DNA of 64,000 bases from Pseudomonas hefeiensis (lineage in GTDB: Bacteria > Pseudomonadota > Gammaproteobacteria > Pseudomonadales > Pseudomonadaceae), in assembly GCF_030687835.1 (NCBI RefSeq), contig NZ_CP117449.1, positions 4,340,001 through 4,404,000 of the forward strand, given 5' to 3'. This document shows positions 5,363-25,571 of this stretch, one piece after another. The number at the start of each line of letters is the position of its first letter. Position 1 is the stretch's first letter. The position numbers and the translations under genes were made by a program. The notes under the pieces are model-generated. The model was given only the letters and a program-made list of their open reading frames with translations. It ran no database searches and had not been told where the DNA came from.

Positions 5363-5659
5363 TCCTTGCGCCATTGCCTACAACTACGCCAGAATTCGCC
5401 CGCTTGTGCGCCTTGCTCATGGGTTCTATCGTTTCCCTGCCACTGCCCATCAGTGGTCGGGTTTAGTAGCCCGGTAGTAGTAACGGTTGCATGAGTCTCA
5501 TCAGTCAGGCATTGCCTGCACTCGATGGTGGCTGTGCGCATGGCGCCTTCGGGCGCGCCGGGTTCCGTTGCCTCTACCGGTCTACTAACTTGCGCACAGC
5601 TGCCTCCTTTCGTTTAGTAGCGAGATGGTTGCGGCCTACTCATTAGAGGTAACGCAACG
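5363..5659 (+). promoter_or_regulatory. Structured leader of DUF6124 gene, copy 1
   Basis: Its first ~75 bases are nearly identical to those of the leader at 25272 (CCTTGCGCCATT, CCTACAACT, CGCCAGAAT, GCTTGTGC, TATCGTTTCC). Next come a hairpin (CCACTG 5440-5445 with CAGTGG 5451-5456), a hairpin CGGG-TTTAGTAG-CCCG (5458-5473), a 10-bp long-range stem (GCTGTGCGCA 5531-5540 with TGCGCACAGC 5591-5600) enclosing a GCGCC-TTCG-GGCGC hairpin, the single strand CTACTAA (5582-5588), and a last hairpin TCG-TTTAGTAG-CGA (5610-5623). CTACTAA is complementary to both TTTAGTAG loops. AGAGG lies before the ATG. Could be an RNA switch or a DNA recombination element. Confidence 0.65.
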
Positions 5660-6019
5660 ATGTTCAAAATTACTCCAAATCCTCCTGAAACTGACTCAAC
5701 GTCTACCCATTCCGGTCGCAAAAACAAAAAGCACGACGAAACCACCAAACGCGTCTTGGATCACTACCTGCTACCCAAACCGGAAAAGTCCGAAGAGGCA
5801 TCCAATCCAGACCAGCTCTTCACCGTGGCAAAAAACGCCGACAACGAATGCCTGCTTGCCAACCTCAGCGAAAACCTGGCATCCGCCGACGCGATGATCA
5901 GCAACCTGGCCTTCGATCTGGAAGGCCCCCACCGCCACATTGCCCTCGGCATCCAGCAACTGATCGAGTTGAGTTCAATGCTGGCCAGCCGTGTGCTGGA
6001 TAACGTCGACCCACGCTAG
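5660..6019 (+). CDS. DUF6124 family protein (formerly DUF3077), copy 1
   Basis: 119 aa, same length as the copy at 25572 and very similar to it: the two share MFK.TPNPP at the start, LFTV, ECLLANLSE.LASADAMIS.LAF.LEG..RH.ALGIQQLIEL and the end LDNVDPR. The N-terminal ~45 residues are variable and charged, the C-terminal half helical. No signal peptide or membrane segment. Function is unknown; the family is common in Pseudomonas. Both copies follow a ~300-base structured leader and are followed by a GTGGCGAGGG inverted-repeat element, so the gene looks like part of a repeated cassette. Confidence 0.8.
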   Translation: MFKITPNPPETDSTSTHSGRKNKKHDETTKRVLDHYLLPKPEKSEEASNPDQLFTVAKNADNECLLANLSENLASADAMISNLAFDLEGPHRHIALGIQQLIELSSMLASRVLDNVDPR

Positions 6020-6097
6020 CCGCGACACCACCAACCCGTGGCGAGGGAGTGGCCGCCGCGTCTTCGACGCTGCGCTGTCGCGCAGTGAACTAGGTCC

Positions 6098-6244
6098 TGT
6101 GGCGAGGGGATTTATCCCCGTTGGGCTGCGCAGCAGCCCCCAAACCAGGCAACTCGGCGTGCCAGGAAGATTGAGTTAACTGCTTTAGGGCCGCTGCGCA
6201 GCCCAACGGGGCGGTGCGACGTTTCGCTAAATCCCCTCGCCACA
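6098..6244. repeat. GTGGCGAGGGGATTTATCCCC inverted-repeat element 1
   Basis: Left arm GTGGCGAGGGGATTTATCCC followed by CGTTGGGCTGCGCAGCAGCC, ~50 bases of loop, then the complementary right arm GGGCCGCTGCGCAGCCCAACGGGG and AAATCCCCTCGCCACA. Related elements are at 25951, 28560 and 50865. The right arm carries an insertion (CGGTGCGACGTTTCGC). Non-coding and probably mobile in the past. Confidence 0.75.
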
Positions 6245-6339
6245 AAGGGAGGCGCACTCGCCTAACTGAGATCACATTGCCGAAGTGTGCTTGGCAGAAA
6301 ATTTTATTTTTAAAATCAGCAGGTTGTAGTTTGTTCCAT

Positions 6340-6462
6340 GAGAGCTTGCTCCCGCTGGGTGGCGAAGCCGCCCCGAAACAGGCTGACGCATTCTCCAGAT
6401 AAACCGCATCAGCCGGTTTACGACGGCTGCGCCGCCGAGCGGGAGCAAGCTCCCTCGCCAGG
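6340..6462. repeat. GAGCTTGCTCCCGCT inverted-repeat element
   Basis: Left arm GAGCTTGCTCCCGCTGGGTG GCGAAGCCGCC, right arm GGCTGCGCCGCCGAGCGGGAGCAAGCTC: an imperfect palindrome of ~120 bases related to, but distinct from, the GTGGCGAGGG family. It lies between the DUF6124 gene and the Rhs remnant. Confidence 0.65.
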
Positions 6463-6496
6463 GATCGCCTACACCTCAAAAGCAGGCGTGTAACCC

Positions 6497-6783
6497 GCCT
6501 TCACCGACCGGCAAGGCAACGCGCAAACCCTGAGCTTCGCCTACGACGCCACCGGCCAGTTGCTCGCCGAAAACAGCGCCGCCGGCAGCCTGCAACACCA
6601 CTATGACGAACTTGGCAACCTGATCCAGACCCAGTTGCCCGACGGCCGCTGGATCAATCGCCTGCACTACGGCAGCGGGGCGCTGCAAAAAATCCGCTAC
6701 TACCACAACGACCTCAACGGCCTGCCGGAACAACTCACCGAGGCCGACGGCCACAACGTGTGGCGGGCGACATATCGGGTGTG
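6497..6783 (+). pseudogene. Rhs fragment with a 741-bp internal deletion
   Basis: From CGCCTTCACCGACC the sequence matches the Rhs gene from about base 70, runs to TACGGCAGCGG, then jumps to the segment that follows base 992 in the intact copy (GCTGCAAAAAATCCGCTAC) and ends at CGGGTGTGGG. The two joined points in the intact gene both carry ACGGCAGCGG (242-251 and 983-992), 741 bases apart, so the deletion is explained by recombination between 10-bp direct repeats and stays in frame. The fragment lacks an N-terminus, a core end and a toxin tip, so it cannot make a working Rhs protein. The frame runs on to 7027 in unrelated sequence. Confidence 0.85.
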
Positions 6784-7125
6784 GGCACCGAGCCCAGAAG
6801 CGCAGATGATTGGAGCTACGATGTACGACCGCCGGGTGGCAAAGCCGCCCAAAATAGTGGCACAAAGCAACCAGGCGGGCCGGTCGAACGAGTTGGCAGG
6901 CCCTTTGGTTTTTTCGCCAACGCCATGGAATGTCTATAGTCAATTGATCTGGGTCATGACTTGTTACATCCGCTACACCATTCGGCCCTTCCTCCCAACG
7001 CGACCAAAGGTCGCACCCTTGAGCTAGACCTACAGGCGTATCATTGCGCCACTGCACTACCCTTTCTGACCGTGGTCGGCACGTACTGACCCCGGCACTT
7101 TTCCACTGCCGTGGGATGCATTTTG
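6784..7125. other. Junction between the Rhs island and the cbb3 assembly genes
   Basis: No supported gene. A possible weak terminator (GGGCC at 6878, GGCCC at 6898, then TTTGGTTTTTT) may be what remains of the end of an upstream cco gene. It is followed by a partial Anr-type box and the start region of ccoG. In many Pseudomonas genomes ccoNOQP lies here; in this window Rhs remnants take that place. Confidence 0.4.
6944..6957 (+). promoter_or_regulatory. Weak Anr/FNR-type box upstream of ccoG
   Basis: TTGATCTGGGTCAT matches the left half (TTGAT) of the TTGAT-N4-ATCAA consensus and part of the right half. It lies ~168 bases before the ccoG start, and cbb3 assembly genes are known Anr targets. 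Imperfect, hence low confidence. Confidence 0.35.
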
Positions 7126-8541
7126 ATGAGCAACCAGATTCCGGTACATGACGTCACCCCGCCTGCCAAGGACGCGAACCAAAGCGTCGATCTCTACGCT
7201 TCTCGGGAAAAAATCTACACCCGCGCCTTCACGGGCCTGTTCCGCAACTTGCGGATGGTCGGCGGTGGCATGTTGTTCCTGCTGTACTTCGGTACGGTCT
7301 GGCTGAATTGGGGCGGGCATCAGGCGGTCTGGTGGAACCTGCCCGAACGCAAATTCTTCATTTTCGGCGCGACCTTCTGGCCCCAAGACTTCATCCTTCT
7401 GTCAGGGCTGCTGATTATTGCCGCCTTTGGCCTGTTTTTCATCACGGTATACGCCGGACGGGTCTGGTGCGGCTACACCTGCCCGCAAAGCGTATGGACG
7501 TGGATTTTCATGTGGTGCGAGAAGGTCACCGAAGGCGACCGCAACCAGCGCATCAAGCTCGACAAGGCGCCCATGAGCGGGAACAAGTTCCTGCGCAAGC
7601 TGGCCAAGCACAGCTTGTGGCTGCTGATCGGTTTCGTCACTGGCATGACCTTCGTCGGGTATTTCAGCCCCATCCGTGAACTGGTGTTCGAGTTCTTTAC
7701 CGGCCAGGCCGATGGCTGGTCATATTTCTGGGTCGGTTTCTTCACCCTCGCCACCTACGGCAACGCCGGCTGGCTGCGCGAGCAGGTGTGCATCTACATG
7801 TGCCCTTACGCACGCTTCCAGAGCGTGATGTTCGACAAGGACACCCTGATCGTTTCCTACGACCCGCGTCGCGGCGAAAGCCGTGGCCCACGCAAGAAGG
7901 GCGTTGACTACAAGGCCCTGGGCCTGGGGGACTGCATCGACTGCACCATGTGCGTCCAGGTCTGCCCCACCGGTATCGACATTCGCGACGGCCTGCAGAT
8001 CGAATGCATCGGCTGCGCGGCGTGCATCGACGCCTGCGACAACATCATGGACAAGATGGATTACCCGCGCGGGCTGATCAGCTACACCACCGAACATAAC
8101 CTCTCGGGACAGAAAACCCATAAACTGCGCCCACGCCTGATCGGTTATGCCCTGGTGCTGCTGGCAATGATCAGCCTGCTGGTGACCGCGTTCTTCATGC
8201 GTTCGCTGGTGGGTTTCGACGTCAGCAAGGACCGTGTGCTGTACCGCGAGAACGCCGAAGGCCGGATCGAGAACGTCTACAGCCTCAAGATCATGAACAA
8301 GGACCAGCGCGATCATACGTACGTGCTGGACGCCACTGGCTTGCCGGACCTCAAGCTGCAGGGACGCCGGGAAATCAAGGTCGCGGCTGGCGAGATCTTC
8401 ACCCAGCCGGTAGAACTGTCCAGCGCGCCGGAGCAACTGCCGTCGAGCGCCAACGAGGTGACCTTCATCCTCAAGGATGCCGATGACGACAGCGTTCATG
8501 TTGAAGCCAAGAGCCGGTTCATCGGCCCACAAATTCGTTGA
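7126..8541 (+). CDS. ccoG: Cytochrome cbb3 oxidase assembly protein CcoG (RdxA/FixG)
   Basis: 471 aa polyferredoxin membrane protein. By family knowledge it reduces Cu(II) for insertion into the CuB site of cytochrome cbb3 oxidase. Visible features: hydrophobic segments near residues 48-65, 90-110, 165-185 and 205-222, the CGYTCPQSVWTWIF motif at ~115, and eight ferredoxin-type cysteines at ~269-306 (CIDCTMCVQVCP and CIGCAACIDACD) for two 4Fe-4S clusters. A last transmembrane segment (~342-362) precedes a C-terminal periplasmic domain. The ATG at 7126 (MSNQIPVHDVTPPAK) fits the family N-terminus better than an in-frame GTG at 7111. First gene of ccoGHIS. Confidence 0.95.
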   Translation: MSNQIPVHDVTPPAKDANQSVDLYASREKIYTRAFTGLFRNLRMVGGGMLFLLYFGTVWLNWGGHQAVWWNLPERKFFIFGATFWPQDFILLSGLLIIAAFGLFFITVYAGRVWCGYTCPQSVWTWIFMWCEKVTEGDRNQRIKLDKAPMSGNKFLRKLAKHSLWLLIGFVTGMTFVGYFSPIRELVFEFFTGQADGWSYFWVGFFTLATYGNAGWLREQVCIYMCPYARFQSVMFDKDTLIVSYDPRRGESRGPRKKGVDYKALGLGDCIDCTMCVQVCPTGIDIRDGLQIECIGCAACIDACDNIMDKMDYPRGLISYTTEHNLSGQKTHKLRPRLIGYALVLLAMISLLVTAFFMRSLVGFDVSKDRVLYRENAEGRIENVYSLKIMNKDQRDHTYVLDATGLPDLKLQGRREIKVAAGEIFTQPVELSSAPEQLPSSANEVTFILKDADDDSVHVEAKSRFIGPQIR

Positions 8542-8552
8542 GAGAACTGAAC

Positions 8553-9092
8553 ATGCCTGCAGCAACCGCTACAAGTCCCTGGTACAAGCACCTCTGGCCG
8601 TGGATCATCATTGGAATTTTGGCCTGCTCGGTGACACTGAGCCTGACCATGGTGACCATCGCCGTGAACAACCCGGACAATCTGGTCAACGACAACTATT
8701 ACGAAGCCGGCAAAGGCATCAACCGCTCCCTGGAGCGCGAACTGCTGGGCCAGACCCTGCAACTGCATGCCAACGTGCAACTGGATGACGTCACCGGCGA
8801 AGTGAACCTGCGCCTGAGCGGCGACAGCCGGCCCCAGACCCTGGAACTGAACCTGATCTCGCCGACCCAGCCGGAAAAGGACCGCAAGGTCGTCCTGACG
8901 CGCAACGACAGCGAACCGGGACGGTATGTCGGTCAGTTGACGGACAAGATCGAAGGCCGGCGCTTTGTCGAATTGCTGGGGGTCGAGAACGACAAGACCT
9001 GGCGGCTGTTCGAAGAAGAGCAGATCAACCATGACCAGGCCGTCCTGCTCGGCGATGAACCGCTGCAAGGCGCTGAAGACCTGAAGAAATAA
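8553..9092 (+). CDS. ccoH: FixH/CcoH family cbb3 oxidase assembly protein
   Basis: 179 aa, one N-terminal membrane anchor (WIIIGILACSVTLSLTMVTIAV) and a periplasmic domain beginning NNPDNLVNDNYYEAGKGINR, the FixH signature. It assists maturation of cytochrome cbb3 oxidase together with CcoG, CcoI and CcoS. The ATG at 8553 lies 11 bases after the ccoG stop and follows AGAGAA; an upstream TTG at 8538 would overlap ccoG and is less likely. Confidence 0.9.
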   Translation: MPAATATSPWYKHLWPWIIIGILACSVTLSLTMVTIAVNNPDNLVNDNYYEAGKGINRSLERELLGQTLQLHANVQLDDVTGEVNLRLSGDSRPQTLELNLISPTQPEKDRKVVLTRNDSEPGRYVGQLTDKIEGRRFVELLGVENDKTWRLFEEEQINHDQAVLLGDEPLQGAEDLKK

Positions 9093-9109
9093 GCTGCTGC
9101 GCTGCGCGC

Positions 9110-9188
9110 AATCGCGAGCAGGCTCGCTCCCACATTGGAATGTCGTAGTGAGACAAACCTGAATGTGGGAGCGAGCCTGCTCGCGAAG
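9110..9188. repeat. REP doublet (head-to-head pair)
   Basis: TCGCGAGCAGGCTCGCTCCC followed by ACA, ~40 bases later by its inverted copy TGTGGGAGCGAGCCTGCTCG CGA. Lies between ccoH and ccoI. Confidence 0.85.
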
Positions 9189-9229
9189 AGGCCTTCAGAT
9201 GCCAGAAAGTTTCGATATGTGAATACCTC

Positions 9230-11680
9230 ATGACCACCCCACTGCCTTGCTATCACTGCGCCCTGCCCGTTCCTCCCGGCAGCCGCTTCACCGCCGTTGT
9301 CCTGGGTGAAACTCGCGAACTCTGCTGCCCGGGTTGTCAGGCAGTGGCCGAGGCGATTGTGGCCGGTGGGCTGGAGAGTTATTACCAACACCGCAGCGAA
9401 GCATCGGCCAACCCCGAAACCCTCCCGGTCCAGTTGACCGATGAGCTGGTGCTGTACGACCGCCCGGACGTGCAGCAGTCGTTCGTGCGCCATGAAGGCG
9501 AGTTGGCCGAAACCACGCTGCTGATCGAAGGCATCAGTTGCGCCGCCTGCGGCTGGTTGATCGAAAAACAACTGCGCAGCCTGCCGGCCGTGGCCGAGGC
9601 GCGGCTGAACCTGTCCAATCACCGCCTGCATGTGCGCTGGGCAGACGCTCAATTACCACTGAGCACCCTACTGGCCGAACTGCGCCAGATCGGCTACGTC
9701 GCCCACCCATACCAGGCCGACCAGGCCAGCGAACAACTGGCCGCGCAAAATCGCCTGGCCCTGCGCCAATTGGGCGTAGCCGGTTTGCTCTGGTTCCAGG
9801 CGATGATGGCGACCATGGCCACCTGGCCGGAATTCAACATCGACCTGAGCCCGGAGATGCACACCATCCTGCGCTGGGTCGCGCTGTTCCTCACCACACC
9901 TATCGTGTTCTACAGTTGCGCACCGTTCTTCAAGGGCGCGATGCGCGACCTGCGCACGCGGCACCTGACCATGGACGTTTCGGTGTCCCTGGCCATTGGC
10001 GGCGCCTATGTCGCCGGGATCTGGACGTCCATCTCCGGTGTGGGTGAGCTGTATTTCGATGCCGTGGGCATGTTCGCGCTGTTCCTTCTGGCCGGTCGCT
10101 ACCTGGAGCGCCGCGCCCGGGAGCGCACCGCTGCCGCCACCGCACAACTGGTCAATCTGCTGCCGGCCTCGTGCCTGCGCCTGGAGGATAACGGCCAGAG
10201 CGAACGGATCCTGCTCAGTGAATTGCGCACCGGTGACCGGGTACTGGTGCATCCCGGAGCGGTCCTGCCGGCCGACGGCAGAATCCTTGACGGCCAGTCC
10301 AGCGTCGACGAATCGCTGCTGACTGGCGAATACCTGCCACAACCTCGTCAAGTGGGCGACACGGTGACCGCTGGCACGCTTAACGTGGAGGGCGCATTGA
10401 CGGTCCAGGTGCTGGCACTGGGGCAAGACACCCGGCTGTCGGCCATCGTGCGGTTGCTGGAACGGGCCCAGGCCGAGAAGCCGCGGCTGGCGGAAATCGC
10501 CGACCGCGCCGCCCAATGGTTCCTGCTGTTCTCCCTGGTCGCTGCGGCGGCCATCGGTCTGCTGTGGTGGCAACTGGATGCCTCTCGCGCCTTCTGGATC
10601 GTGCTGGCGATGCTGGTCGCCACCTGCCCTTGCGCGCTGTCCCTGGCCACGCCAACCGCCCTTACCGCCGCCACCGGCACGCTGCACAAGCTTGGCCTGC
10701 TGCTGACTCGCGGCCATGTGCTGGAAGGCCTGAACCAGATCGACACGGTCATTTTCGACAAGACCGGCACTCTCACCGAAGGTCGTCTGGCGTTGCGCGC
10801 CATTCGGACGCTGACGGCCCTGGACAGTGATCGATGCCTGGGCCTGGCCGCGGCCCTGGAAAATCGCTCCGAACACCCCATCGCCCGTGCCTTTGGCCGC
10901 GCGCCACTGGCCGCCGAGCACGTGCAAAGCACCCCGGGGCTGGGCCTGGAAGGCCTGGTGGATGACCAGCGCCTGCGCATCGGCCAACCCGGTTTTGTCT
11001 GCGAACTCAGTGGCGCGGCGGTGCCGGTGATGCCGGATGAGCCCGGACAATGGTTGCTGCTGGGTGATGACATCGGTCCGTTGGCCTGGTTCGTCCTCGA
11101 CGACCGCTTGCGCGCCGACGCCCCGGCATTGCTGGCCGCCTGCAAAGCGCGGGGCTGGCGCACACTGTTGCTGTCGGGCGACAGTTCGCCCATGGTTGCC
11201 AGTGTCGCCGCCGAACTGGGCATCGATGAAGCTCGCGGCGGTTTGCGCCCGGACGATAAACTGGCCGTGTTGCAACAGTTGCACCAGCAGGGCGGCAAGG
11301 TGCTGATGCTCGGCGACGGGGTGAACGACGTGCCGGTGCTGGCGGCGGCGGACATCAGTGTCGCCATGGGCTCGGCCACCGATCTTGCCAAGACCAGCGC
11401 CGATGCGGTGTTGCTGTCCAACCGTCTCGATGCCCTGATCCACGCCTTCAGCCTGGCTCGGCGCACCCGGCGGGTGATCATCGAGAACCTGGTGTGGGCA
11501 GCACTGTACAATGGCCTCATGTTGCCGTTCGCCGCTCTCGGCTGGATTACGCCGGTGTGGGCCGCGATCGGCATGTCCATCAGTTCGCTGACCGTGGTGT
11601 TGAATGCGCTGAGGCTGACGCGTCAGCCCAAGACGCCGGTTTTCGACGCCACGCCCGATACCCGCCCGCTGCCGGCCTGA
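9230..11680 (+). CDS. ccoI: Copper-translocating P1B-type ATPase for cbb3 oxidase (CcoI/FixI)
   Basis: 816 aa. N-terminal cysteine-rich region (CYHC at ~7, CCPGC at ~34), heavy-metal domain with GISCAACGW at ~100, eight membrane segments, CPC ion-binding motif at ~465, phosphorylation motif DKTGT at ~509, and GDGVND hinge at ~694. It exports copper to the periplasmic side for assembly of the CuB site of cytochrome cbb3 oxidase, rather than for general copper resistance, as judged by its place between ccoH and ccoS. The ATG at 9230 gives the standard N-terminus. Confidence 0.95.
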   Translation: MTTPLPCYHCALPVPPGSRFTAVVLGETRELCCPGCQAVAEAIVAGGLESYYQHRSEASANPETLPVQLTDELVLYDRPDVQQSFVRHEGELAETTLLIEGISCAACGWLIEKQLRSLPAVAEARLNLSNHRLHVRWADAQLPLSTLLAELRQIGYVAHPYQADQASEQLAAQNRLALRQLGVAGLLWFQAMMATMATWPEFNIDLSPEMHTILRWVALFLTTPIVFYSCAPFFKGAMRDLRTRHLTMDVSVSLAIGGAYVAGIWTSISGVGELYFDAVGMFALFLLAGRYLERRARERTAAATAQLVNLLPASCLRLEDNGQSERILLSELRTGDRVLVHPGAVLPADGRILDGQSSVDESLLTGEYLPQPRQVGDTVTAGTLNVEGALTVQVLALGQDTRLSAIVRLLERAQAEKPRLAEIADRAAQWFLLFSLVAAAAIGLLWWQLDASRAFWIVLAMLVATCPCALSLATPTALTAATGTLHKLGLLLTRGHVLEGLNQIDTVIFDKTGTLTEGRLALRAIRTLTALDSDRCLGLAAALENRSEHPIARAFGRAPLAAEHVQSTPGLGLEGLVDDQRLRIGQPGFVCELSGAAVPVMPDEPGQWLLLGDDIGPLAWFVLDDRLRADAPALLAACKARGWRTLLLSGDSSPMVASVAAELGIDEARGGLRPDDKLAVLQQLHQQGGKVLMLGDGVNDVPVLAAADISVAMGSATDLAKTSADAVLLSNRLDALIHAFSLARRTRRVIIENLVWAALYNGLMLPFAALGWITPVWAAIGMSISSLTVVLNALRLTRQPKTPVFDATPDTRPLPA

Positions 11681-11704
11681 GCCGCGCGGGCATGGAGTTC
11701 CGAC

Positions 11705-11923
11705 ATGCCAGCTCTTTACGTGATGATCCCGGCCGCACTGCTGATCGTGGCCATCGCCGTCTACATCTTTTTCTGGGCGGTGGACAGCGGGCAGTACGAC
11801 GACCTCGACGGTCCGGCCCACAGCATTCTGTTTGACGATCAGGACCCCAACCACAAAGCGGCGGTGGACGAAGCCAGCGGCGAGCCCCGCAAGCCGGACG
11901 ACAAGGCCCCGCCCCATGCTTGA
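11705..11923 (+). CDS. ccoS: Cytochrome cbb3 oxidase maturation protein CcoS
   Basis: 72 aa. One N-terminal membrane segment (YVMIPAALLIVAIAVYIFFW) and the typical WAVDSGQYDDLDGPAHSIL stretch followed by a short acidic tail. Needed for cofactor insertion into cytochrome cbb3. It begins 24 bases after ccoI and overlaps the next gene by 8 bases, so it is part of the operon. Confidence 0.93.
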   Translation: MPALYVMIPAALLIVAIAVYIFFWAVDSGQYDDLDGPAHSILFDDQDPNHKAAVDEASGEPRKPDDKAPPHA

Positions 11924-12599
11924 TCTGGCGCCACTGTTGGTCTCGGCGCTCATCCTGGGGTTATTGGGCGGCGGTCATTGCCTGGGCATGTGCGGCGGCC
12001 TGATGGGCGCTCTGACCCTGGCAATCCCTAAGGAACAGCGCAGTCGGCGCTTTCGGTTGCTACTGGCCTACAACCTGGGGCGGATTCTGAGCTACGCCAC
12101 CGCCGGGTTGCTGATCGGCCTGGCTGGCTGGGCCGTGGCCAATAGCCCAGCGGCGATGGTCATGCGCGTGTTGGCCGGGCTGCTGTTGATCGCCATGGGC
12201 TTGTACCTGGCGGGCTGGTGGAGCGGCCTGACCCGCATCGAAGGCGTCGGTCGCGGCCTGTGGCGGCATATCCAGCCCGTCGCCAACCGTTTGCTACCGG
12301 TGTCGAGCCTGCCGCGGGCCTTGCTGCTCGGCGCGCTCTGGGGCTGGCTGCCGTGCGGGTTGGTCTACAGCACCCTGCTGTGGTCAGCCAGCCAGGGCGA
12401 TGCGCTGGACAGCGCGTTGCTGATGCTCGCCTTCGGCCTCGGCACCTGGCCGGTGTTGCTCGCCACCGGGATGGCCGCCGAACGCATCACCGCTCTGTTG
12501 CGCAAACGCAGCGTACGCATGGCCGGTGGCTTGCTGGTGATTGTCTTTGGTCTCTGGACCCTGCCAGGACCGCATCAGCATTGGCTCATGGGGCACTGA
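11916..12599 (+). CDS. Sulfite exporter TauE/SafE family membrane protein linked to cbb3 assembly
   Basis: 227 aa. Six or so membrane segments; GGGHCLGMCGG near residue 16 is the hallmark of the family members encoded after ccoS, related to the CcdA/DsbD-like and TauE/SafE group. Its ATG lies within the end of ccoS (ATGCTTGA overlap). The cysteine and histidine motif and context suggest a role in metal or redox supply to the oxidase rather than sulfite export. An in-frame upstream start at 11832 would overlap ccoS widely and is rejected. Confidence 0.85.
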   Translation: MLDLAPLLVSALILGLLGGGHCLGMCGGLMGALTLAIPKEQRSRRFRLLLAYNLGRILSYATAGLLIGLAGWAVANSPAAMVMRVLAGLLLIAMGLYLAGWWSGLTRIEGVGRGLWRHIQPVANRLLPVSSLPRALLLGALWGWLPCGLVYSTLLWSASQGDALDSALLMLAFGLGTWPVLLATGMAAERITALLRKRSVRMAGGLLVIVFGLWTLPGPHQHWLMGH

Positions 12600-12610
12600 A
12601 CCGGCCGGCC

Positions 12611-12779
12611 TCAATCGCGAGCAGGCTCGCTCCCACAGGGGATTTGTGGCGAACACCACATTATGAACACCCCACGATCAAAATGTGGGAGCAAGCTCGG
12701 CTCCCACAGGCCATGCGTTGTGGCCGGAAGCCAGGAACGCCCCGATCCAGTGTGGGAGCGAGCCTGCTCGCGATGAGGC
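12611..12779. repeat. Three REP elements
   Basis: REP units in alternating orientation at 12612 (TCGCGAGCAGGCTCGCTCCC), 12683 (TGTGGGAGCAAGCTCGGCTC) and 12750 (TGTGGGAGCGAGCCTGCTCG). They fill the gap between the cbb3 operon and the hemN promoter. Confidence 0.8.
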
Positions 12780-12807
12780 CATCACCCACACCCAGCCCCC
12801 ATGCCCG

Positions 12808-12856
12808 TTGACGCAAATCAACACCCCCCCGCGCCCACTTCCCTAGACTCGTGCTC
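12808..12856 (+). promoter_or_regulatory. Anr-dependent (FNR class II) promoter of hemN
   Basis: TTGACGCAAATCAA (12808-12821) matches TTGAT-N4-ATCAA with one change. A -10 like TAGACT at 12844-12849 predicts a start at ~12856, 41.5 bases from the box centre, the spacing expected for FNR-type activation. HemN is a known Anr target, and anr itself is the next gene. Confidence 0.8.
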
Positions 12857-12883
12857 ATGCCAGTCTATCCGGGGAACGCCCGC

Positions 12884-17745: not shown

Positions 17746-17771
17746 CGTACAGACGCCACATTTCCCGAGCA

Positions 17772-17804
17772 CAAACAAAAATGCCAGGCGCGATGCCTGG
17801 CATT
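17772..17804 (-). terminator. Terminator after ybaB
   Basis: On the minus strand AATGCCAGGC-ATCGC-GCCTGGCATT is followed by TTTTGTTTG. A perfect 10-bp stem. Confidence 0.8.
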
Positions 17805-17835
17805 GTGTGTAGCCCATCCCGACCGGGATGGCGAG

Positions 17836-18174
17836 TCAGAACGGCAGCTTCATGCCCGGCGGCAGTTGCATGCCAGCGGTCATGCCGGACATTTTGTCCT
17901 GGCTGTTGGCTTCGATCTTGCGCACCGCGTCATTGACGGCGGCGGCGAACAGGGCTTCGAGCATTTCCTTGTCGTCTTCGCTCAGGCCTTCGACCACGCT
18001 CGGGTCGATGCTGACACGCTTGATGTCGTGGCGACCGGTCATGACCACGGTCACCATGTCGCCGCCGGACTTGCCGGTGACTTCGGCGTTGGCCAGTTCT
18101 TCCTGCATCTTGGCCATTTTTTCCTGCATCTGCTGCGCCTGCTTCATCAGGCCGGCCATGCCACCTTTCATCAT
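17836..18174 (-). CDS. ybaB: YbaB/EbfC nucleoid-associated protein
   Basis: 112 aa, methionine- and glutamine-rich N-terminus ([20 protein letters not shown]), central [23 protein letters not shown] and an acidic C-terminal helix. Binds DNA as a dimer; the gene follows dnaX as in most bacteria and probably shares its transcript. Start chosen at 18174 behind GAGGTG rather than the in-frame GTG at 18183. Confidence 0.93.
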
Positions 18175-18238
18175 GGGAATCACCTCAAAAGTACTTGGAT
18201 AAACACCGCGCCCGGCCCGTACGGCCCGGCGCTTTCAG

Positions 18239-20299
18239 TTATGAGCCCTGGGTCACCGGGGCCTCGACAGGTTCGATAGTATCGTGACGGACCACGGCGC
18301 CGAACTGTTGCATCATTTGCTGGATGAACGGATCACTGTGGATCGACTCCTCGGCCTCGCGCTGACGGTCGGCACGGCGGCGGGACGCAGCCTGGGCCGG
18401 CGTCTCCTGCTCAGGCTTGATCAGCTCGATGCTCAGCGTCAGGGTGCGCTGGTGATACTGGTTCAGCGCATCGTTGAGGCGGCGCTGCTGAGTGGCGTTG
18501 AACAGCGCGCTATGGGCCGGGTCCAGGTGCAGCAGCCAGTGGTCGCCCTCCACGGAGATCAGCGTGCAGTTGGCGGCAATGCTGCCGGTCATGCCGGTAA
18601 TCGGCAGTTTCGGGAACAGCTCCAGCCATTGCAGGGCCAGTCCGGTAGCCGGCATCGCCGCCGGTTCAGGCTCGGGCTCCGGAGCCGGCTCGGCGGTGTG
18701 CTCGCTGGCCAGTTCGTCCAGATAGCTGTAGGCCGAATCCATGTCCGGCTCAATGTAATCCTCGTCCAGCGGCGGCTCATCATCCAGGTCCATGCCCGGC
18801 GTGGCGACATCAACGTCCGCCACCGTAGGCTCGGGCACCGGAGCGGCAGCCCACTCGGGTGCGTCGGGCACCACGCTATCGGGCGTGGGCACGGGCATCG
18901 GCGGCAGCTCGGGTTGCTCAGCGACGGTTTCCAGCACCGGCTCCACGGCGGGCTGCTGGACGACCTGGGCCTCGACCGGATCGTTCCAGGGCAGGTCGAC
19001 CACTTCTTCGGCGACCGGCTGCGGCAAGGCCTCGACGACCGGCTCAGGCTCAGGCGCCGCGACGACAGGCACCGGGGCCGGTTGCGCCACCGCTGCCGGG
19101 GCAGAAGCCACTGCCGGCGCAACGACGGGCGCGGCAGCCACTGGCTTGGCGGAATCAGCTGTGGCCTGGCTGATCCCCACTGGCTTTAGCGGTTGCCTCG
19201 GGGCGTTTTCCGTGTCGGCCGGCCGGAACGCGAGCATTCGCAGCAGCACCATTTCAAACCCACCACGCGGATCCGGCGCCAGGGGCAGGTCACGACGGCC
19301 GATCAGCCCCATCTGGTAATAGAACTGCACGTCCTCGGCCGGCAGTGCCTGAGCCAGTGCCAGCACCCGATCACGGTCGCCATGACCGTTATCAACCCCA
19401 TCAGGCAAGGCCTGGGCGATGGCGACACGGTGTAATACGTTGAGAATTTCCGAGAGCACGCCATTCCAGTCCGGCCCCTGCTCGGCCAGGTGACGCACCG
19501 CTTCGAGCAGCGCCTTGGCGTCACCTTCGATCAGCGCATGCAACACGTCGTAGACCTGGCCGTGGTCGAGGGTGCCCAGCATGGCCCGCACATCGGCGGC
19601 CATGACCTTGCCTTCACCAAAGGCAATGGCCTGGTCGGTCAGGCTCATGGCGTCACGCATCGAACCATCGGCGGCGCGACCCAGCAGCCACAGCGCATCG
19701 TCTTCGAACGGCACGTTCTCGACACCCAACACGTGGGTCAGATGCTCAACGACCCGCTCCGGGGTCATGTTCTTCAGGGAGAACTGCAGGCAGCGGGACA
19801 AAATGGTTGCAGGAAGCTTCTGCGGGTCGGTGGTCGCCAGGATGAACTTGACGTAAGGCGGCGGCTCTTCGAGGGTCTTGAGCAGTGCATTGAAGGAATG
19901 GCTGGAAAGCATGTGCACTTCGTCGATCAGGTAGACCTTGAAGCGCCCACGGCTTGGCGCGTACTGCACGTTGTCGAGCAGCTCGCGGGTGTCTTCGACC
20001 TTGGTGCGGCTGGCGGCGTCGATCTCGATCAGGTCGACGAAACGGCCTTCGTCGATTTCCCGGCATACCGAGCACTCGCCACACGGCGTCGAGGTAATGC
20101 CGGTTTCACAGTTCAGGCACTTGGCGATGATCCGCGCGATGGTCGTCTTGCCGACGCCGCGCGTGCCGGTGAACAGGTAGGCGTGATGCAGCCGCTGGCT
20201 GTCCAAGGCATTGATCAGGGCCTTGAGCACATGGGTCTGGCCGACCATTTCGCGGAACGAGCGCGGACGCCATTTACGTGCAAGAACCTGATAACTCAT
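18239..20299 (-). CDS. dnaX: DNA polymerase III subunit gamma/tau
   Basis: 686 aa clamp-loader ATPase. Walker A GTRGVGKTT at ~44, zinc-binding cysteines CLNC...CGECSVC, DEVHML (Walker B), SRCLQF sensor region, then a long Pro/Ala/Val/Glu-rich linker (~405-570) and the C-terminal tau domain. The start MSYQVLARKWRPRSF at 20299 is the family start; the open frame continues 44 codons upstream without support. No clear slippery AAAAAAG for a gamma frameshift was noticed. Confidence 0.95.
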   Translation of the reverse strand: MSYQVLARKWRPRSFREMVGQTHVLKALINALDSQRLHHAYLFTGTRGVGKTTIARIIAKCLNCETGITSTPCGECSVCREIDEGRFVDLIEIDAASRTKVEDTRELLDNVQYAPSRGRFKVYLIDEVHMLSSHSFNALLKTLEEPPPYVKFILATTDPQKLPATILSRCLQFSLKNMTPERVVEHLTHVLGVENVPFEDDALWLLGRAADGSMRDAMSLTDQAIAFGEGKVMAADVRAMLGTLDHGQVYDVLHALIEGDAKALLEAVRHLAEQGPDWNGVLSEILNVLHRVAIAQALPDGVDNGHGDRDRVLALAQALPAEDVQFYYQMGLIGRRDLPLAPDPRGGFEMVLLRMLAFRPADTENAPRQPLKPVGISQATADSAKPVAAAPVVAPAVASAPAAVAQPAPVPVVAAPEPEPVVEALPQPVAEEVVDLPWNDPVEAQVVQQPAVEPVLETVAEQPELPPMPVPTPDSVVPDAPEWAAAPVPEPTVADVDVATPGMDLDDEPPLDEDYIEPDMDSAYSYLDELASEHTAEPAPEPEPEPAAMPATGLALQWLELFPKLPITGMTGSIAANCTLISVEGDHWLLHLDPAHSALFNATQQRRLNDALNQYHQRTLTLSIELIKPEQETPAQAASRRRADRQREAEESIHSDPFIQQMMQQFGAVVRHDTIEPVEAPVTQGS

Positions 20300-20442
20300 C
20301 GAAAACCATCGCCACTGGAAAGCAGAAGCGGCTAATGCTAGCGGAGCAGGGGCGAAATTGCATCCGGTGTGCTCGTCTAATCTGTCTAAGCTTGGGTCAG
20401 GGGCCCGATTGTCGGCAGGATTTAGCACCATCAGGAGAGTTT

Positions 20443-21210
20443 ATGCGTTCGGCCATGGGGGCTTTGCTGTTAATGGGTTCAGGGTGTTTTGCTGCCGAAA
20501 CCCCGTTGCGTTTCGCCATCACCGACAGTTGGGCCATGCCCATGGTGCAGACTGAAGAAGGCCGCCCGATCCAGGGCATCATCCCCGAGGTCATGACCCG
20601 ACTGGCGACCCAGGTGGGGATGCCGGCGCAGTTTCATGTCCTGGCCCGCGCCCGGCTGGACAATGCCATGAAACATGGCGAAGTCGACGTACGGTGTTAT
20701 GTCATCCCCGATTGGGTAAAGGATACGGGGGGCGATTACCTGTGGAGCATCCCGCTATTTTTCCAGCGCGACGTGCTGGTGGGCACGGCCAGCGCCCCCA
20801 CGGAGGTGACGCCCGCGACCCTGCCCCACCAGCCTGTCGGGACCGTGCTCAGTTATGCCTACCCGACCTTGCAACCGCTCTTCGACGGCGGGGATCTGCG
20901 ACGTGACGATGCACGCAGCCAGGAACAAGTCCTGGCCAAACTGCTGGCCGGCCGCTATCGCTATGCGGTCAGCAATCAATGGGCGCTGGAGTGGTTCAAT
21001 CAGCGACATACCCCTGACCGGCCATTGCGCGCCGTGGCTGTACTCCAGGAGCGCGTGTTGGGCTGCTATGTGCGCGACGATCCGAAAATCCCGGCACAAC
21101 GCATTCTGCGCACCTTATTGAAAATGAAAACGTCGGGGGAAATCGACGCGATCATCCAGCGCTACACCGGCCATAGAGAGTCGCCGGGCAGCGGATCCGA
21201 TTCGCCCTGA
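20443..21210 (+). CDS. Periplasmic substrate-binding family protein (SBP_bac_3 type)
   Basis: 255 aa. N-terminal signal peptide MRSAMGALLLMGSGCFAAE with likely cleavage after CFA; TPLRFAITDSWAMPM starts the mature domain. Sequence pattern (GIIPEVMTRLATQVGM, DVRCYVIPDWV, YSIPLFFQRD-like, VGTVLSYAYP) is that of amino-acid-type solute-binding proteins; no ABC permease genes lie nearby, so it may be an orphan receptor. Start set at 20443 after CAGGAGAG. The 3' end overlaps the end of the convergent GGDEF/EAL gene by 49 bases. Confidence 0.85.
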   Translation: MRSAMGALLLMGSGCFAAETPLRFAITDSWAMPMVQTEEGRPIQGIIPEVMTRLATQVGMPAQFHVLARARLDNAMKHGEVDVRCYVIPDWVKDTGGDYLWSIPLFFQRDVLVGTASAPTEVTPATLPHQPVGTVLSYAYPTLQPLFDGGDLRRDDARSQEQVLAKLLAGRYRYAVSNQWALEWFNQRHTPDRPLRAVAVLQERVLGCYVRDDPKIPAQRILRTLLKMKTSGEIDAIIQRYTGHRESPGSGSDSP

Positions 21211-22916
21211 AGGTCCGGCCGATGCTGCCATTGCGGCGGCGAAGCAAATCCCCTCACCCAGCCTGGTACTTGTTCAGGCGGCATGGGCCGGGCGATGAAA
21301 TAGCCTTGAGCCACTTCGCAACCCAGGCGTAACAGCAATTGACCATGCTCCAGGCTGTCCAGTCCCTCCGCCACCACCTGGCGACCAAATGCCCTGGCCA
21401 AGCCGATGATCGCTTCGGTCAGCGCCAGATCATCCCGGTCATTGAGTATGTCGCGGACAAAGGTCTTGTCGATCTTGATGGTCTGTGTGCGCAGGTGTTT
21501 GAGGTCATTGAGCGAACAGTATCCCGTGCCAAAACCGCCCAGGGAAAACCCCACACCCAAGGCCTGGCACGCCTGGAGACAGGTGCTGACGTGGGCAAGG
21601 TTTTCCACCGCGACGGATTCAACGATCTGCAGATCCAGCATGCGCGGCGACACCGCCGGGTGCCGTTGCAGCACCTGCCGCAACCGCTCGACGAAATCCG
21701 CCCGCTGGAAATGCCGCGCCGAGATATTGATGCTCACCGGCCAGACCTGCCCCGCGTGCTGCCATTGCTGCAACTGAATCAGCACCTGCTCCATGACCCA
21801 CTCACCGATCTCGACGATCAGGTCGGTCTCCTCCACAAGCGGCAGGAACTCCCGGGGCGGCACCAGGCCCCGTTGTGGATGTTTCCAGCGCAGCAACGCT
21901 TCCAGGCCCACCACCGCGCCATGGCGCATATTGACCTTGGGCTGGAAATGCAGCCGCAACTCGTTGCCGGCCATGGCCTGCCGCACCCGCTCGACGGTCT
22001 GGTAAGTGACCCGCACTTCATGGTCCCGGGACACGTCGAACAAATGAAAGCGATTGCGACCGCTCTGCTTGGCCACGTACATCGCCTGGTCGGCGTGGCG
22101 CAACAAGGTGTCGGCGTCTTCGTTGTCATCGGGAAACAGGGTGACGCCAATGCTGGCGAAAACCTTGATGGCCTTGCCATCAATGGCATACGGCATGGAG
22201 ACGGCAATCAGCACCCGGTTCAACGCGGCATGCAATTCATCAAGCCCGCGTACATGGCGCAGCACCAGCACAAACTCATCGCCAGCCAGCCGCGCCACCA
22301 CATCCTCACCGCGCACGATGCTGCGCAGGCGCCTGGCGACTTCCACCAGCAACTGATCACCACAGGCATGGCCATGACCGTCGTTCACGGCCTTGAAGCC
22401 ATCCAGGTCGAGCATACACACCGCCAGAGGCAAGTTCTGCGCCCTGGAAAACTCCAGAGCCTGATCCAGCAGATCGGACAGGTAGGTGCGGTTGGGCAAT
22501 CCGGTCAACACATCGTGACCGACCCGCCATTGCAGCGAATGCAACAACTGACGCTTCTCGCTGATATCAAAACGAATCGCCAGGTAGCGCTCGATCTGAC
22601 CGGTCGCATCGTCGATCACCGGCACCAGCGTGGTATCGACCCAATGCAGCGTACCGTCCTTGGCCCGGTTGCAGATCTCACCCTTCCAGACCTGCCCCAG
22701 GGCGATGGTGCGCCACATGGCGCTGAAGAACTCGCCAGGGTGCTGGCCGGAGTTGATCAGGCGATGGTTAGCCCCCAACAGCTCTTCGCGCGGGTAGCCA
22801 AAAAGCTTACAGAATTGGTCGTTGACGTAGGTAATGCGCCCGCTCAGATCGGTTTCAGAAAAAATCGCGGCGGCGTCAACGGCTCTGCGGTACTTCTTAT
22901 CCATCGAAGCAGTCAT
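21162..22916 (-). CDS. PAS-GGDEF-EAL protein with degenerate EAL domain
   Basis: 584 aa from MTASMDKKYRRAV; a GTG 12 codons upstream is an alternative. PAS domain (~10-130; ITYVNDQFCKLFGYPREELLG), GGDEF domain (~150-310) with LAGDEFVLVLR as active loop, EAL domain (~330-575). The GGDEF half looks able to make cyclic di-GMP. In the EAL half EALLRW is kept, but the metal-binding DDFGTG is GGFGTG and the ELTES motif reads LQIVES, so phosphodiesterase activity is probably lost and the domain may serve as a sensor. Cytoplasmic, no membrane segments. Confidence 0.9.
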   Translation of the reverse strand: MTASMDKKYRRAVDAAAIFSETDLSGRITYVNDQFCKLFGYPREELLGANHRLINSGQHPGEFFSAMWRTIALGQVWKGEICNRAKDGTLHWVDTTLVPVIDDATGQIERYLAIRFDISEKRQLLHSLQWRVGHDVLTGLPNRTYLSDLLDQALEFSRAQNLPLAVCMLDLDGFKAVNDGHGHACGDQLLVEVARRLRSIVRGEDVVARLAGDEFVLVLRHVRGLDELHAALNRVLIAVSMPYAIDGKAIKVFASIGVTLFPDDNEDADTLLRHADQAMYVAKQSGRNRFHLFDVSRDHEVRVTYQTVERVRQAMAGNELRLHFQPKVNMRHGAVVGLEALLRWKHPQRGLVPPREFLPLVEETDLIVEIGEWVMEQVLIQLQQWQHAGQVWPVSINISARHFQRADFVERLRQVLQRHPAVSPRMLDLQIVESVAVENLAHVSTCLQACQALGVGFSLGGFGTGYCSLNDLKHLRTQTIKIDKTFVRDILNDRDDLALTEAIIGLARAFGRQVVAEGLDSLEHGQLLLRLGCEVAQGYFIARPMPPEQVPGWVRGFASPPQWQHRPDLQGESDPLPGDSLWPV

Positions 22917-23242
22917 CCATGAGTCAGGCTCATTTGTCGCGCGCGGTTGCACCGCCCCAAGACAGGCGAAAAATCAACTAGGCTCAAACACCTTGAGATA
23001 CGCTGGAGCGCGGGCCGTGGCGGTGCTACCTGAAGGCGCCAAGCGTCGCCTTGTGTACAACAAGAAAACGCAAGGCCCACCCTTTTCGCACATCCAGGCT
23101 TCTGAAGCAGGTCACCAAATGCCCGTGCCAAAGGCCGATTCTACGAAACGCATCACATTTTGCAAAGCAAGGTGATGAATCATGCGGTTGCCTAATGCAA
23201 AAATCTATCGTTAAGTTCTTGATTCTAAATGGGAATTAAGCG
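22917..23242. other. Intergenic region between divergent genes
   Basis: No convincing gene. It holds the promoters of the GGDEF/EAL gene (minus) and the XRE regulator (plus); AT-rich sequence at 23200-23240 fits the latter. Confidence 0.4.
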
Positions 23243-23557
23243 ATGCAAATTTCAAGTTTGGGTCCGGCCATCAGACGCTATCGCAAAGTAGCGGGGCTTA
23301 CTCAGGCTGAACTTGGCGAAAAAACCGGTTTTGACCCTAAAACCATCAGCCGTTTCGAAACCGGCACCTACACCCCGAGCGTCGAAGCCTTGGTCTTGCT
23401 TGCCGACAAACTGGATGTACAGCTCAAAGTGTTTTTTGCCGACATGGACGACGAGGACGAACAGCGGGCATACCTGTTTGGCGTCATACACAAAGCCACC
23501 GCAAAGGATTTGGGGAAGCTGATTGCGGCGGTAGATCAGGCACTGGCGAAGCCTTGA
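23243..23557 (+). CDS. XRE-family helix-turn-helix regulator
   Basis: 104 aa. The N-terminal HTH is clear: IRRYRKVAGLTQAELGEKTG, FDPKTISRFETGTYTPS, VEALVLLADKLDV. C-terminal half short and acidic (FFADMDDEDEQR), then a helix. The composition and size suggest a stand-alone repressor; no toxin gene partner is adjacent, and an intrinsic terminator follows. Target unknown. Confidence 0.85.
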   Translation: MQISSLGPAIRRYRKVAGLTQAELGEKTGFDPKTISRFETGTYTPSVEALVLLADKLDVQLKVFFADMDDEDEQRAYLFGVIHKATAKDLGKLIAAVDQALAKP

Positions 23558-23575
23558 AGCGATAATGCAAAAGAA

Positions 23576-23616
23576 AAGCCCGGCCTGTCGATGAGCGACA
23601 GGCCGGGCTTCTCTTT
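23576..23616 (+). terminator. Terminator after the XRE regulator
   Basis: GCCCGGCCTGTCG-ATGAG-CGACAGGCCGGGC followed by TTCTCTTT: a perfect 13-bp stem. It could also act on the minus strand (CTTTTCTTTT), ending 4.5S RNA transcripts. Confidence 0.85.
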
Positions 23617-23741
23617 CGGTGTTTGGTTGTTCTGCCACACCAGAATCCAGGCAGCAGAAAGCGGCGATAAATATCGTTCGGTAAATAAAAGAAATATGGA
23701 ATATTCGCAAACCTTGCGAACGAAGGCCTGGGCGTTATGGA

Positions 23742-23850
23742 GGCAACCCCACCAGCCACACCCCGGCACACAATGTTCCCGCTGTGGCTGCTTCCTTCCG
23801 GATCTGACCAGGTTCACGGGTAATCGTTGCGGGGGGACCGATGGGGTCAC
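23742..23850 (-). ncRNA. ffs: 4.5S RNA (bacterial small SRP RNA)
   Basis: On the minus strand the conserved apical SRP motif is present: GGTCAGATCCGGAAGGAAGC AGCC, flanked by pairing arms GTGACCCCATCGG...CCCCCGCAACG at the 5' side and GTGTGCCGGGGTGTGGCTGG TGGGG at the 3' side. It binds Ffh to form the signal recognition particle for co-translational membrane targeting. Ends are estimated from the pairing arms. Confidence 0.93.
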
Positions 23851-23991
23851 CATAACGACGCCCACCTGACGGCGAGCCGCGCCATTGTACCTATCTGACG
23901 AGAAGTTACAACCGTTCGCGCCGGATTAAAAAACTGAAGATGTTCAAGCACTTGCCTGTGGGAACAAAGCCTGCTCCCGCAAGCCGGGCTG

Positions 23992-25152
23992 CTACAGCAA
24001 CACCTCGTCAGCGCGGCCGCCCTCCTCCTGGATTACCAGATGGATGAAATGCAGCTTGGTGATCACCGCGGCCGGTACGACGAACGGATAAAAATCCGGC
24101 TGGCCCATGCTGCGCGACAGTTCGTTGAGCATGCCGGCCAGTTCGATCCAGGCGTTGACGAACGACAGGAAGGCCACGCCGCCGCTGTGTTGAGGGTCGA
24201 ACAAGGTCTCGGGCGGGAACGGTTGGTAGTCGAAATCCATGTCCCCGGCGCTCATGCCAAAACCCAGGGCCGTGTCCACCGCGTCCATCATGTGCAGGTA
24301 ATGCGCCCAGGTTTCCGCCCAGTCTTCCCAGGGATGCATGGTGGCGTAGGCGCTGACGTAGTGAGTTTGCCAGTCCAGCGGCGCGCCCTGCTGATAGTGA
24401 CGTTCCAGGGCATCGGAATAGCTGGCCCGCTCGTCGCCAAACTGCTCGCGAAACGCCTCGAGCCAGTGGCTGTTGGCGATCAACCGGTCCCAGTAGTAGT
24501 GCCCTACCTCATGACGAAAGTGCCCGAGCAAGGTGCGATACGGCTCGTGCATCTGCTGGCGCACGTGCTCGCGGTGGGCATCGTCGGCCTCTTTGATGTC
24601 GAGCGTGACCAACCCGCTGGCATGGCCGGTGGTCGGAGCCGTGCCGTCGAGATCAACGCCGATGAAATCGAAGGCCAGGCCCTGACTTTCACTGACGGTT
24701 TTTGGGATGACTGGCAAACCGAGAGTGATCAATTGCGCCACCAGCCGGCGCTTGGCGGTTTCGACCTTGCACCAGCGTTCGGGGTTTTCCGGGATCGACA
24801 GGTCTGGAATGGTGCGGTTCAAGCTGCAGGCGATACACAAGGTGTCGCGCCCATTGGCCGGCAACAGCCAATTGCAGGCCGCCGGGGTGTCGAGGTTGGC
24901 GCAACGGCGGAACAATCCGGCGTGCGGGTCGGCATCCAGGGTCCAGGTGCCGGGCTGTTCGCCGGGTTGCAGGGACGACAAGCGGCTTTGCTCGGGCTGA
25001 TAGCCCAGCACCGCCTGGCAGGCCAGGCACTGGCTGTTGCGAAAAAACAGCGACTGGCCGCAACGACACGGCCAGATCTTGCTGTTACGCGAGCGATCGC
25101 CGGTAAAGGGCGCGGCGATGCGTGAACTCAGTTGCTCGAAGAAGCGGTACAT
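23992..25152 (-). CDS. Putative zinc-binding metallopeptidase with N-terminal zinc ribbon
   Basis: 386 aa. N-terminal ribbon with CRCGQSLFFRNSQCLAC; a further cysteine group CIACSLNRTIPD at ~105. The peptidase centre HFRHEVGHYYWDRLI (HExxH type) near residue 213 and a later DWAETWAHYLHMMD match the DUF-type putative zinc-binding metallopeptidases found in Proteobacteria. No signal peptide, so probably cytoplasmic. Substrate unknown. Confidence 0.85.
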   Translation of the reverse strand: MYRFFEQLSSRIAAPFTGDRSRNSKIWPCRCGQSLFFRNSQCLACQAVLGYQPEQSRLSSLQPGEQPGTWTLDADPHAGLFRRCANLDTPAACNWLLPANGRDTLCIACSLNRTIPDLSIPENPERWCKVETAKRRLVAQLITLGLPVIPKTVSESQGLAFDFIGVDLDGTAPTTGHASGLVTLDIKEADDAHREHVRQQMHEPYRTLLGHFRHEVGHYYWDRLIANSHWLEAFREQFGDERASYSDALERHYQQGAPLDWQTHYVSAYATMHPWEDWAETWAHYLHMMDAVDTALGFGMSAGDMDFDYQPFPPETLFDPQHSGGVAFLSFVNAWIELAGMLNELSRSMGQPDFYPFVVPAAVITKLHFIHLVIQEEGGRADEVLL

Positions 25153-25271
25153 GGTGATCTCCGGGGGCCTGCAAGACTAGATTCCCCCCTGTGCGTGATC
25201 GTTCCCGGGAGCGTGCGAATCATCCGAAGATTGTGAGCATTGTGTAGGACGCTGCCGGGCCGGGCTACCCC

Positions 25272-25571
25272 GCCTTGCGCCATTACCTACAACTGCGCCA
25301 GAATCCGCCGGCTTGTGCACCTATGGGCCGGGCTTTATCGTTTCCGGGTCGCTGACGAATCAGCGATCGGGTTTAGCGACCCGGATCATTCTAGGTGCAT
25401 AAGCGGTCCATGCTTCGCTGCAGGTCTAACTGCAATGACGTTATGGCGGCTGTATGTGGGAGACCTTCGAGTCTGCCGGGTGCCTATGACCGGTTCGCTA
25501 ACCTGCGTGCAGCCGCCACCATTTCTGTTTAGCGACAGGCCTTGGTGGCTCCATCTCATAGGAGCGTCACC
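25272..25571 (+). promoter_or_regulatory. Structured leader of DUF6124 gene, copy 2
   Basis: Same architecture as the leader at 5363 with compensating changes: hairpin TCGCTGA-CGAA-TCAGCGA (25349-25366), hairpin CGGG-TTTAGCGA-CCCG (25368-25383), long-range stem GGCGGCTG (25445-25452) with CAGCCGCC (25510-25517) enclosing AGAC-CTTCGA-GTCT, single strand TCGCTAA (25495-25501), and hairpin CTG-TTTAGCGA-CAG (25525-25538). Both loops and the single-stranded complement changed together relative to copy 1. TAGGAG precedes the ATG by 7 bases. Confidence 0.65.

Follow-up and report, generated by a model that had tools for sequence, protein, structure and literature searches.

Why should two leaders in one bacterial chromosome share an architecture and yet carry different words at the same three places? 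The question is raised by a stretch of 64,000 nucleotides (nt) of Pseudomonas hefeiensis DNA (NCBI RefSeq assembly GCF_030687835.1, contig NZ_CP117449.1, positions 4,340,001 to 4,404,000; hereafter the window), in which two genes of the DUF6124 family are each preceded by a leader with two hairpins that have the same loop and, between them, a single strand complementary to that loop. A reading of the sequence alone had described these stems, twin loops and loop complements, all of which lie where it placed them; it proposed either a pseudoknot or loop–loop switch in RNA or the paired sites of a DNA recombination system, and could match them to no named RNA family. The Rfam covariance models supply the name, since RF01695 (C4 antisense RNA) and RF03163 (its c4-a1b1 target element) are both above their gathering cut-offs in both leaders. 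The leader RNA itself is therefore already known and is of the C4 type: the repeated loop represents the targets a1 and a2, and the complementary single strand corresponds to a′. A second triad, b1/b′/b2, which the sequence-only reading missed, ends at the Shine–Dalgarno region of the DUF6124 gene (Table 1). What looks new is not the motif but an amplified, differently coded set of such RNAs linked to DUF6124.

Relation to the C4 RNAs of phages

The passages of PMC5320573 on phages P1 and P7 describe an antisense RNA that is excised from its transcript and pairs with the target messenger RNA (mRNA). C4 in these phages represses antirepressor synthesis, and a 4-nt difference between P1 and P7 is enough to limit cross-reactivity (PMC5320573). 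P1 C4 is also summarised in parts of PMC12197685 and PMC8546580, and c4 and c4-a1b1 appear in a list in PMC2864571. The phage P1 record is annotated in the order a1, b1, C4, a2, b2, then icd and ant, and the P1 sequence contains the same type of triad. The Pseudomonas leaders match the immI operon of P1 and P7 in the order of elements up to the gene, in a and b elements of 7–8 nt, in the position of b2 ahead of the start codon, and in a three-stem C4 with a′ single-stranded and b′ in a loop. They differ in that the gene downstream is DUF6124 instead of icd and the antirepressor gene, by which a P1-type immI operon is defined, and in having many scattered chromosomal copies with differing codes. 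Of the earlier RNA proposal, the pairing code stands, whereas the pseudoknot gives way to the excised antisense RNA of the family.

A second likeness is to Acinetobacter baumannii, for which 21 C4-like small RNAs (Group 1) have been described, with signs of processing at an RNase P-type GGW site (PMC5320573). These RNAs, too, are numerous within a genome and varied in a′/b′, and they are expressed and apparently processed; they belong to another genus, and the parts of PMC5320573 drawn on here tie them neither to adjacent a1/b1 and a2/b2 elements of their own nor to a gene family.

We propose that leader and gene very likely constitute a self-repressing C4-type antisense cassette. A promoter directly upstream would make one transcript, the middle of which would be excised as a C4 RNA of ~77 nt, as RNase P does in P1/P7. 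The a′ and b′ of this RNA would then bind two targets, a1/b1 close to the transcript's 5′ end and a2/b2 ahead of the gene; because b2 overlaps the ribosome-binding site, DUF6124 would be kept off. Differences in code would spare the cassettes mutual silencing, in the way that a difference of a few nucleotides does for P1/P7. In this scheme, the production of C4 and the repression are what we infer.

The pairing code across many copies

Two loci alone would be insufficient proof of a code, because a bare 7-nt triad (a word, its reverse complement and the word again) is not rare by chance: the window contains 9 on the + strand and 13 on the − strand, and ten block shuffles of the + strand give 1 to 10. 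Proof comes from many copies, which we took from two sets that overlap in species: all C4 loci over the cut-off in five genomes (n = 146; 31 in the window genome, G000, 19 in G035, 32 in G125, 35 in G010 and 29 in G124), and 79 DUF6124 loci from named Pseudomonas genomes. In the latter, a triad lies within 330 nt upstream at 75 of the 79 loci, against 2 of 225 control stretches from those loci. As for the misses, by eye L386 has a triad with extra sequence separating C4 and a2 and L355 retains an a2-like hairpin without C4; for L387, only 95 nt of upstream sequence was available, and the match at L402 begins at residue 6.

Exact 7-nt triads occur in 136 of the 146 cassettes and involve 28 different words. 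A cassette's a′ pairs over at least 6 nt with its own a1 in 145 cases and with its own a2 in 144; the corresponding counts for b′ are 107 for b1 and 118 for b2, this second count being slightly low, as an early start codon was picked in at least one cassette. The four own-pairing means were unmatched in 5000 permutations. The elements themselves are diverse: a′ comes in 34 forms and b′ in 101. The stems covary as well. A comparison of 133 distinct C4 sequences reveals a helix in which a pair may be changed on both sides in as many as 69 sequences, G–U pairs included, and whose six pairs are intact in 94 to 100% of the sequences. Upstream of C4, a promoter-like TTGNNN-N15-19-TANNNT is present in 130 of the 146 cassettes (7.3% in shuffles), and, of the features tied to processing by RNase P, GG is visible close to the 5′ side of the P1 stem in 145.

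The joint change of three separated elements, noticed by the sequence-only reading between the two window leaders, is also seen between syntenic copies. Among 60 cross-genome pairs that are syntenic by flanking matches, some of them loosely, as several cassettes share one partner, both codes are the same in 19 and both differ in 26; a difference is restricted to b′ in 12 and to a′ in 3. Alignments of four such pairs show change at all three places in leaders that are otherwise similar. Thus, between G000:5273147 and G035:C38, whose leaders are 92.4% identical, TTAGTCG becomes TTAGCAG in a1, a′ and a2; between G000:5098214 and G125:2859375, TTAGTAG becomes TTAGTCG in the same three elements, with the b′ loop unchanged; and between G010:964631 and G125:3147711, one base is altered alike in b1, b′ and b2, with further changes near b2. 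Where the other code and the scaffold are retained, a swap of whole leaders is argued against. The code triads evolve, at several syntenic sites, through joint change of three separated elements.

Distinct codes within one genome

The window genome contains 31 C4 loci above the cut-off and 31 DUF6124 matches, among which a single broken gene accounts for two and a fragment for another; by position, C4 stands ahead of a DUF6124 match at 26 of the 31 loci. The DUF6124 genes behind loci 298051 and 279353 appear frameshifted. Of the remaining five, locus 2144742 precedes a short open reading frame (ORF) with the same start, 394572 precedes DUF3077 (a DUF3077 pseudogene is mentioned in a part of PMC9630843), 917931 precedes another ORF, and 5937298 and 3685496 precede two similar proteins, the first of which, when scanned, had no Pfam match over the cut-off.

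Nearly every cassette of a genome has a code of its own: 31 of 31 in G000, 34 of 35 in G010, 19 of 19 in G035, 29 of 29 in G124 and 32 of 32 in G125. Joint pairing of at least 7 nt with both a2 and b2 is found for 94 of 146 own combinations, for 5 of 4266 with other cassettes of the same genome, and for 85 of 16784 with non-syntenic cassettes of other genomes (Fisher P 0.0002; cassette pairs share members and are not independent, so that P values are guides only). Identical (a′,b′) codes occur in 1 of 2133 within-genome pairs versus 49 of 8452 between-genome pairs. The signal lies in near relatives and in the joint a + b measure. When proteins are at least 0.9 identical, b′ is alike in 0 of 12 pairs within and 24 of 40 between genomes; with protein identity of at least 0.8 and identity of at least 0.85 in the C4 scaffold (its first 34 nt), both codes agree in 0 of 19 versus 46 of 127, and with the protein threshold lowered to 0.7, in 1 of 36 versus 64 of 257. 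Judging from these codes, copies in one genome are probably kept apart, the cassettes being insulated from each other.

Several observations weigh against the cassettes being insulated, doubly coded circuits. The b1 element is weak in both window leaders: the longest exact run measures 5 nt in leader 1; that of leader 2 measures 4 nt and lies at another place in the region. Single elements do not insulate on their own, because the own target frequently fails to rank first by single-element duplex energy: in G000 it is the strict best for a′ in 23 of 31 upstream and 8 of 31 downstream, and for b′ in 8 of 31 upstream and 15 of 31 downstream. Over all pairs, the mean complementary run of a′ with a1 is 4.60 within and 4.64 between genomes, and the stratified permutation gives a modest effect (4 observed against 9.5 expected, P 0.016). 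Two within-genome pairs share b′, and one of them, the tandem G010:741014 and 741736, also shares a′; no gene start was found for the copy at 741736. Finally, gene conversion of the coding part could make paralogues seem younger than their leaders, and the between-genome pairs may include orthologues with undetected synteny.

It is tempting to go further, tentatively and with somewhat less than even confidence, and to propose that many sites, around the members of a small-protein family of the host, were colonised by a C4 cassette of phage type, giving tens of private-channel circuits per genome that avoid sharing codes, and that these codes evolve by concerted three-element change, perhaps through repeat-templated copying among a1, a′ and a2. 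If true, a single cell would contain many natural antisense pairs that are apparently insulated from one another, and two matters would become testable in it: the evolution of specificity under the need for three elements to change jointly, and the number of bases that separate such pairs. C4 also offers a candidate regulator for the DUF6124 gene family.

The DUF6124 cassette, its sites and its distribution

The DUF6124 proteins are apparently under purifying selection, with a median ratio of nonsynonymous to synonymous substitution (dN/dS) of 0.15; of 39 syntenic pairs, the 37 whose dS was usable were counted. A profile search against solved structures found nothing credible (best E 0.49), and PHROGs, NCBIfam and PADLOC gave nothing convincing, the best being an NCBIfam histidine-kinase model at 16.5 against a cut-off of 500. 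Profile comparisons with DUF3077-like and other C4-linked proteins, made with shallow alignments, were not significant, and DUF6124 is absent from the literature searched, which leaves out most subscription papers.

The sites of the cassettes are patchy. Around the second cassette, the flanks are ~930 nt apart here; in all 28 relatives in which both could be aligned, the distance is 38 to 467 nt (29 relatives were examined; L165, with one flank aligned only, was left out). Of 24 relatives asked about the first cassette, 3 have its neighbour gene at full length, and in none of these was the cassette found beside it. Homology between the two cassettes extends over about 25257-25987 and 5190-6049. 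Such sites, together with the private codes, the many copies and an antisense RNA that covers the ribosome-binding site of a small gene, would be explained if the cassettes were addiction-like modules in which DUF6124 is harmful and C4 is a type I antitoxin RNA. We consider this unlikely. Release from C4 seems tolerated, since the DUF6124 genes at 632586 and 1943545 of the window genome (L052 and L051) seem intact, with stop-free frames, behind leaders with no C4 call that keep an a1-like hairpin and, by eye, have no intact a2; PADLOC does not recognise the module; and typical type I toxins are short hydrophobic peptides, which the DUF6124 protein does not resemble.

Could the leader instead act mainly in cis, with a1/b1 folding onto a′/b′ of the same transcript and the freed 5′ part activating, as with IsrK in Gifsy-1? 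According to the parts of PMC4825925 that bear on it, IsrK of Salmonella sits before a small ORF and an antirepressor-like gene and works in trans on its own operon, so that pairing within one operon is common to both systems; it differs in activating and in having another target gene. In the minimum-energy folds predicted for the two leaders, a1 and a′ are paired in leader 1; they are not in leader 2, whose fold leaves C4 intact. The isrK model (RF01394) matches the a1/b1 parts of the window leaders weakly, at 20.9 and 31.4 bits, below its cut-off of 50, and no U-rich terminator was seen by eye after a1 in either. A switch mainly in cis is thus quite doubtful; within a self-repressing cassette, the a1–a′ cis pairing may compete with the pairing of C4 in trans.

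It is very improbable that the chromosomal C4 RNAs serve as an immunity library against phages, each silencing the antirepressor mRNAs of incomers that share its code. The action of C4 on the antirepressor in P1/P7 fits such a role, and targeting of incoming phages is one option listed by the A. baumannii authors in the relevant part of PMC5320573. However, the 88 resolved C4 copies of IMG/VR without DUF6124, from a set (L055-L162) biased through its choice by one exact hairpin, have 44 distinct codes, one of which is also among the 105 chromosomal codes; only 6 of 6424 chromosomal–viral combinations reach a of at least 7 and b of at least 8; and the cassettes retain their own targets and gene. 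In that same set, one a′ code occurs in 70 of the 88 copies, with b′ variable. Among 50,697 phage records, DUF6124 has one match, at a record edge. The IMG/VR contig L121 carries two C4-DUF6124 cassettes, at 9873 and 10900, ~1 kb apart and with differing a codes.

Paired DNA recombination sites, the other earlier suggestion, would suit the inverted and direct repeats and the differences between cassettes by site, but this idea has a negligible chance in view of the Rfam RNA model match, of stem covariation that includes G–U pairs and of an element order that is that of a characterised RNA regulator, and the four flanking proteins scanned (a zinc peptidase and the DNA ligase LigA beside copy 2, two without Pfam match beside copy 1) lend it no support, no wider search for recombination genes having been made.

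RNAs of the C4 family are common in the genus. In 149 Pseudomonas genomes, the window genome included, C4 is found in 138 at E ≤ 0.001 and in 137 over the cut-off, and DUF6124 in 118, when at most 27 C4 and 38 DUF6124 candidates per genome are scored. A family-wide survey of 99 genomes found DUF6124 in 6, which belong to one genus of the 19 represented. Across the phylum, C4 turned up in 35 of the 249 genomes surveyed, spread over 25 of 131 genera, with at most 16 candidates scored per genome. Of these 35, 31 lie outside the genus: most (26) contain 1 to 3 matches, and the other five contain 5 to 14. Of 29 loci from this survey, 3 of them in the genus, 26 have upstream and again downstream the same word of 6 nt or more that is complementary to a′, and by eye some loci precede antirepressor-looking proteins or small Icd-like ORFs. 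Neither C4 nor DUF6124 was found in 14 well-known control genomes. Two genomes of other genera, G292 and G241, have 14 and 10 C4 loci, the former without DUF6124.

Table 1. Elements of the two leaders and their genes, in positions of the window
Feature	Position	Strand	Sequence, score or pairing
Leader 1 promoter-like	5404..5432	+	-35 TTGTGC / -10 TATCGT, spacing 17
Leader 1 c4-a1b1 target element (RF03163)	5426..5477	+	50.5 bits, cut-off 46.7
Leader 1 stem	5440-5445 / 5451-5456		CCACTG / CAGTGG
Leader 1 a1 loop	5462..5469	+	TTTAGTAG
Leader 1 b1 region	5480..5490	+	AACGG 5482-5486 pairs with b′ CCGTT 5565-5569
Leader 1 C4 antisense RNA (RF01695)	5521..5610	+	71.3 bits, cut-off 45
Leader 1 stem	5531-5540 / 5591-5600		GCTGTGCGCA / TGCGCACAGC
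Leader 1 b′ loop of C4	5561..5577	+	
Leader 1 a′ single strand	5582..5588	+	CTACTAA
Leader 1 a2 loop	5613..5620	+	TTTAGTAG
Leader 1 b2, Shine–Dalgarno region	5644..5649	+	TAGAGG, pairs with CCTCTA 5571-5576
DUF6124 gene (PF19619) after leader 1, 119 aa	5660..6019	+	100.1 bits, cut-off 27
Leader 2 promoter-like	25313..25341	+	-35 TTGTGC / -10 TATCGT, spacing 17
Leader 2 c4-a1b1 target element (RF03163)	25335..25387	+	52.7 bits
Leader 2 stem	25349-25355 / 25360-25366		TCGCTGA / TCAGCGA
Leader 2 a1 loop	25372..25379	+	TTTAGCGA
Leader 2 b1 region, weak	25390..25398	+	TCTAGGTGC, 7 pairs if two G-U allowed (count by eye)
Leader 2 C4 antisense RNA (RF01695)	25439..25523	+	71.6 bits
Leader 2 stem	25445-25452 / 25510-25517		GGCGGCTG / CAGCCGCC
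Leader 2 b′ loop of C4	25479..25490	+	
Leader 2 a′ single strand	25495..25501	+	TCGCTAA
Leader 2 a2 loop	25528..25535	+	TTTAGCGA
Leader 2 b2, overlaps Shine–Dalgarno region	25556..25562	+	TCATAGG, pairs with CCTATGA 25483-25489
DUF6124 gene (PF19619) after leader 2, 119 aa	25572..25931	+	110 bits

Elsewhere in the window genome, a divergent DUF6124 gene at G000:C1:2202484 (L053), with no C4 call nearby and no C4-like leader by eye, is a possible stand-alone form. Behind both window cassettes, REP-like palindromic repeats (GTGGCGAGGGGATTTATCCCC and similar) were seen by eye at 6034-6240 and 25940-26085, and in a few relatives a similar stretch aligns at the second cassette's site, which otherwise lacks a cassette. 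Further Rfam matches in the window are an rmf leader (50333-50466), a narK leader (54348-54418), the small RNA (sRNA) P11 (57774-57910) and a small signal recognition particle (SRP) RNA (23747-23843).

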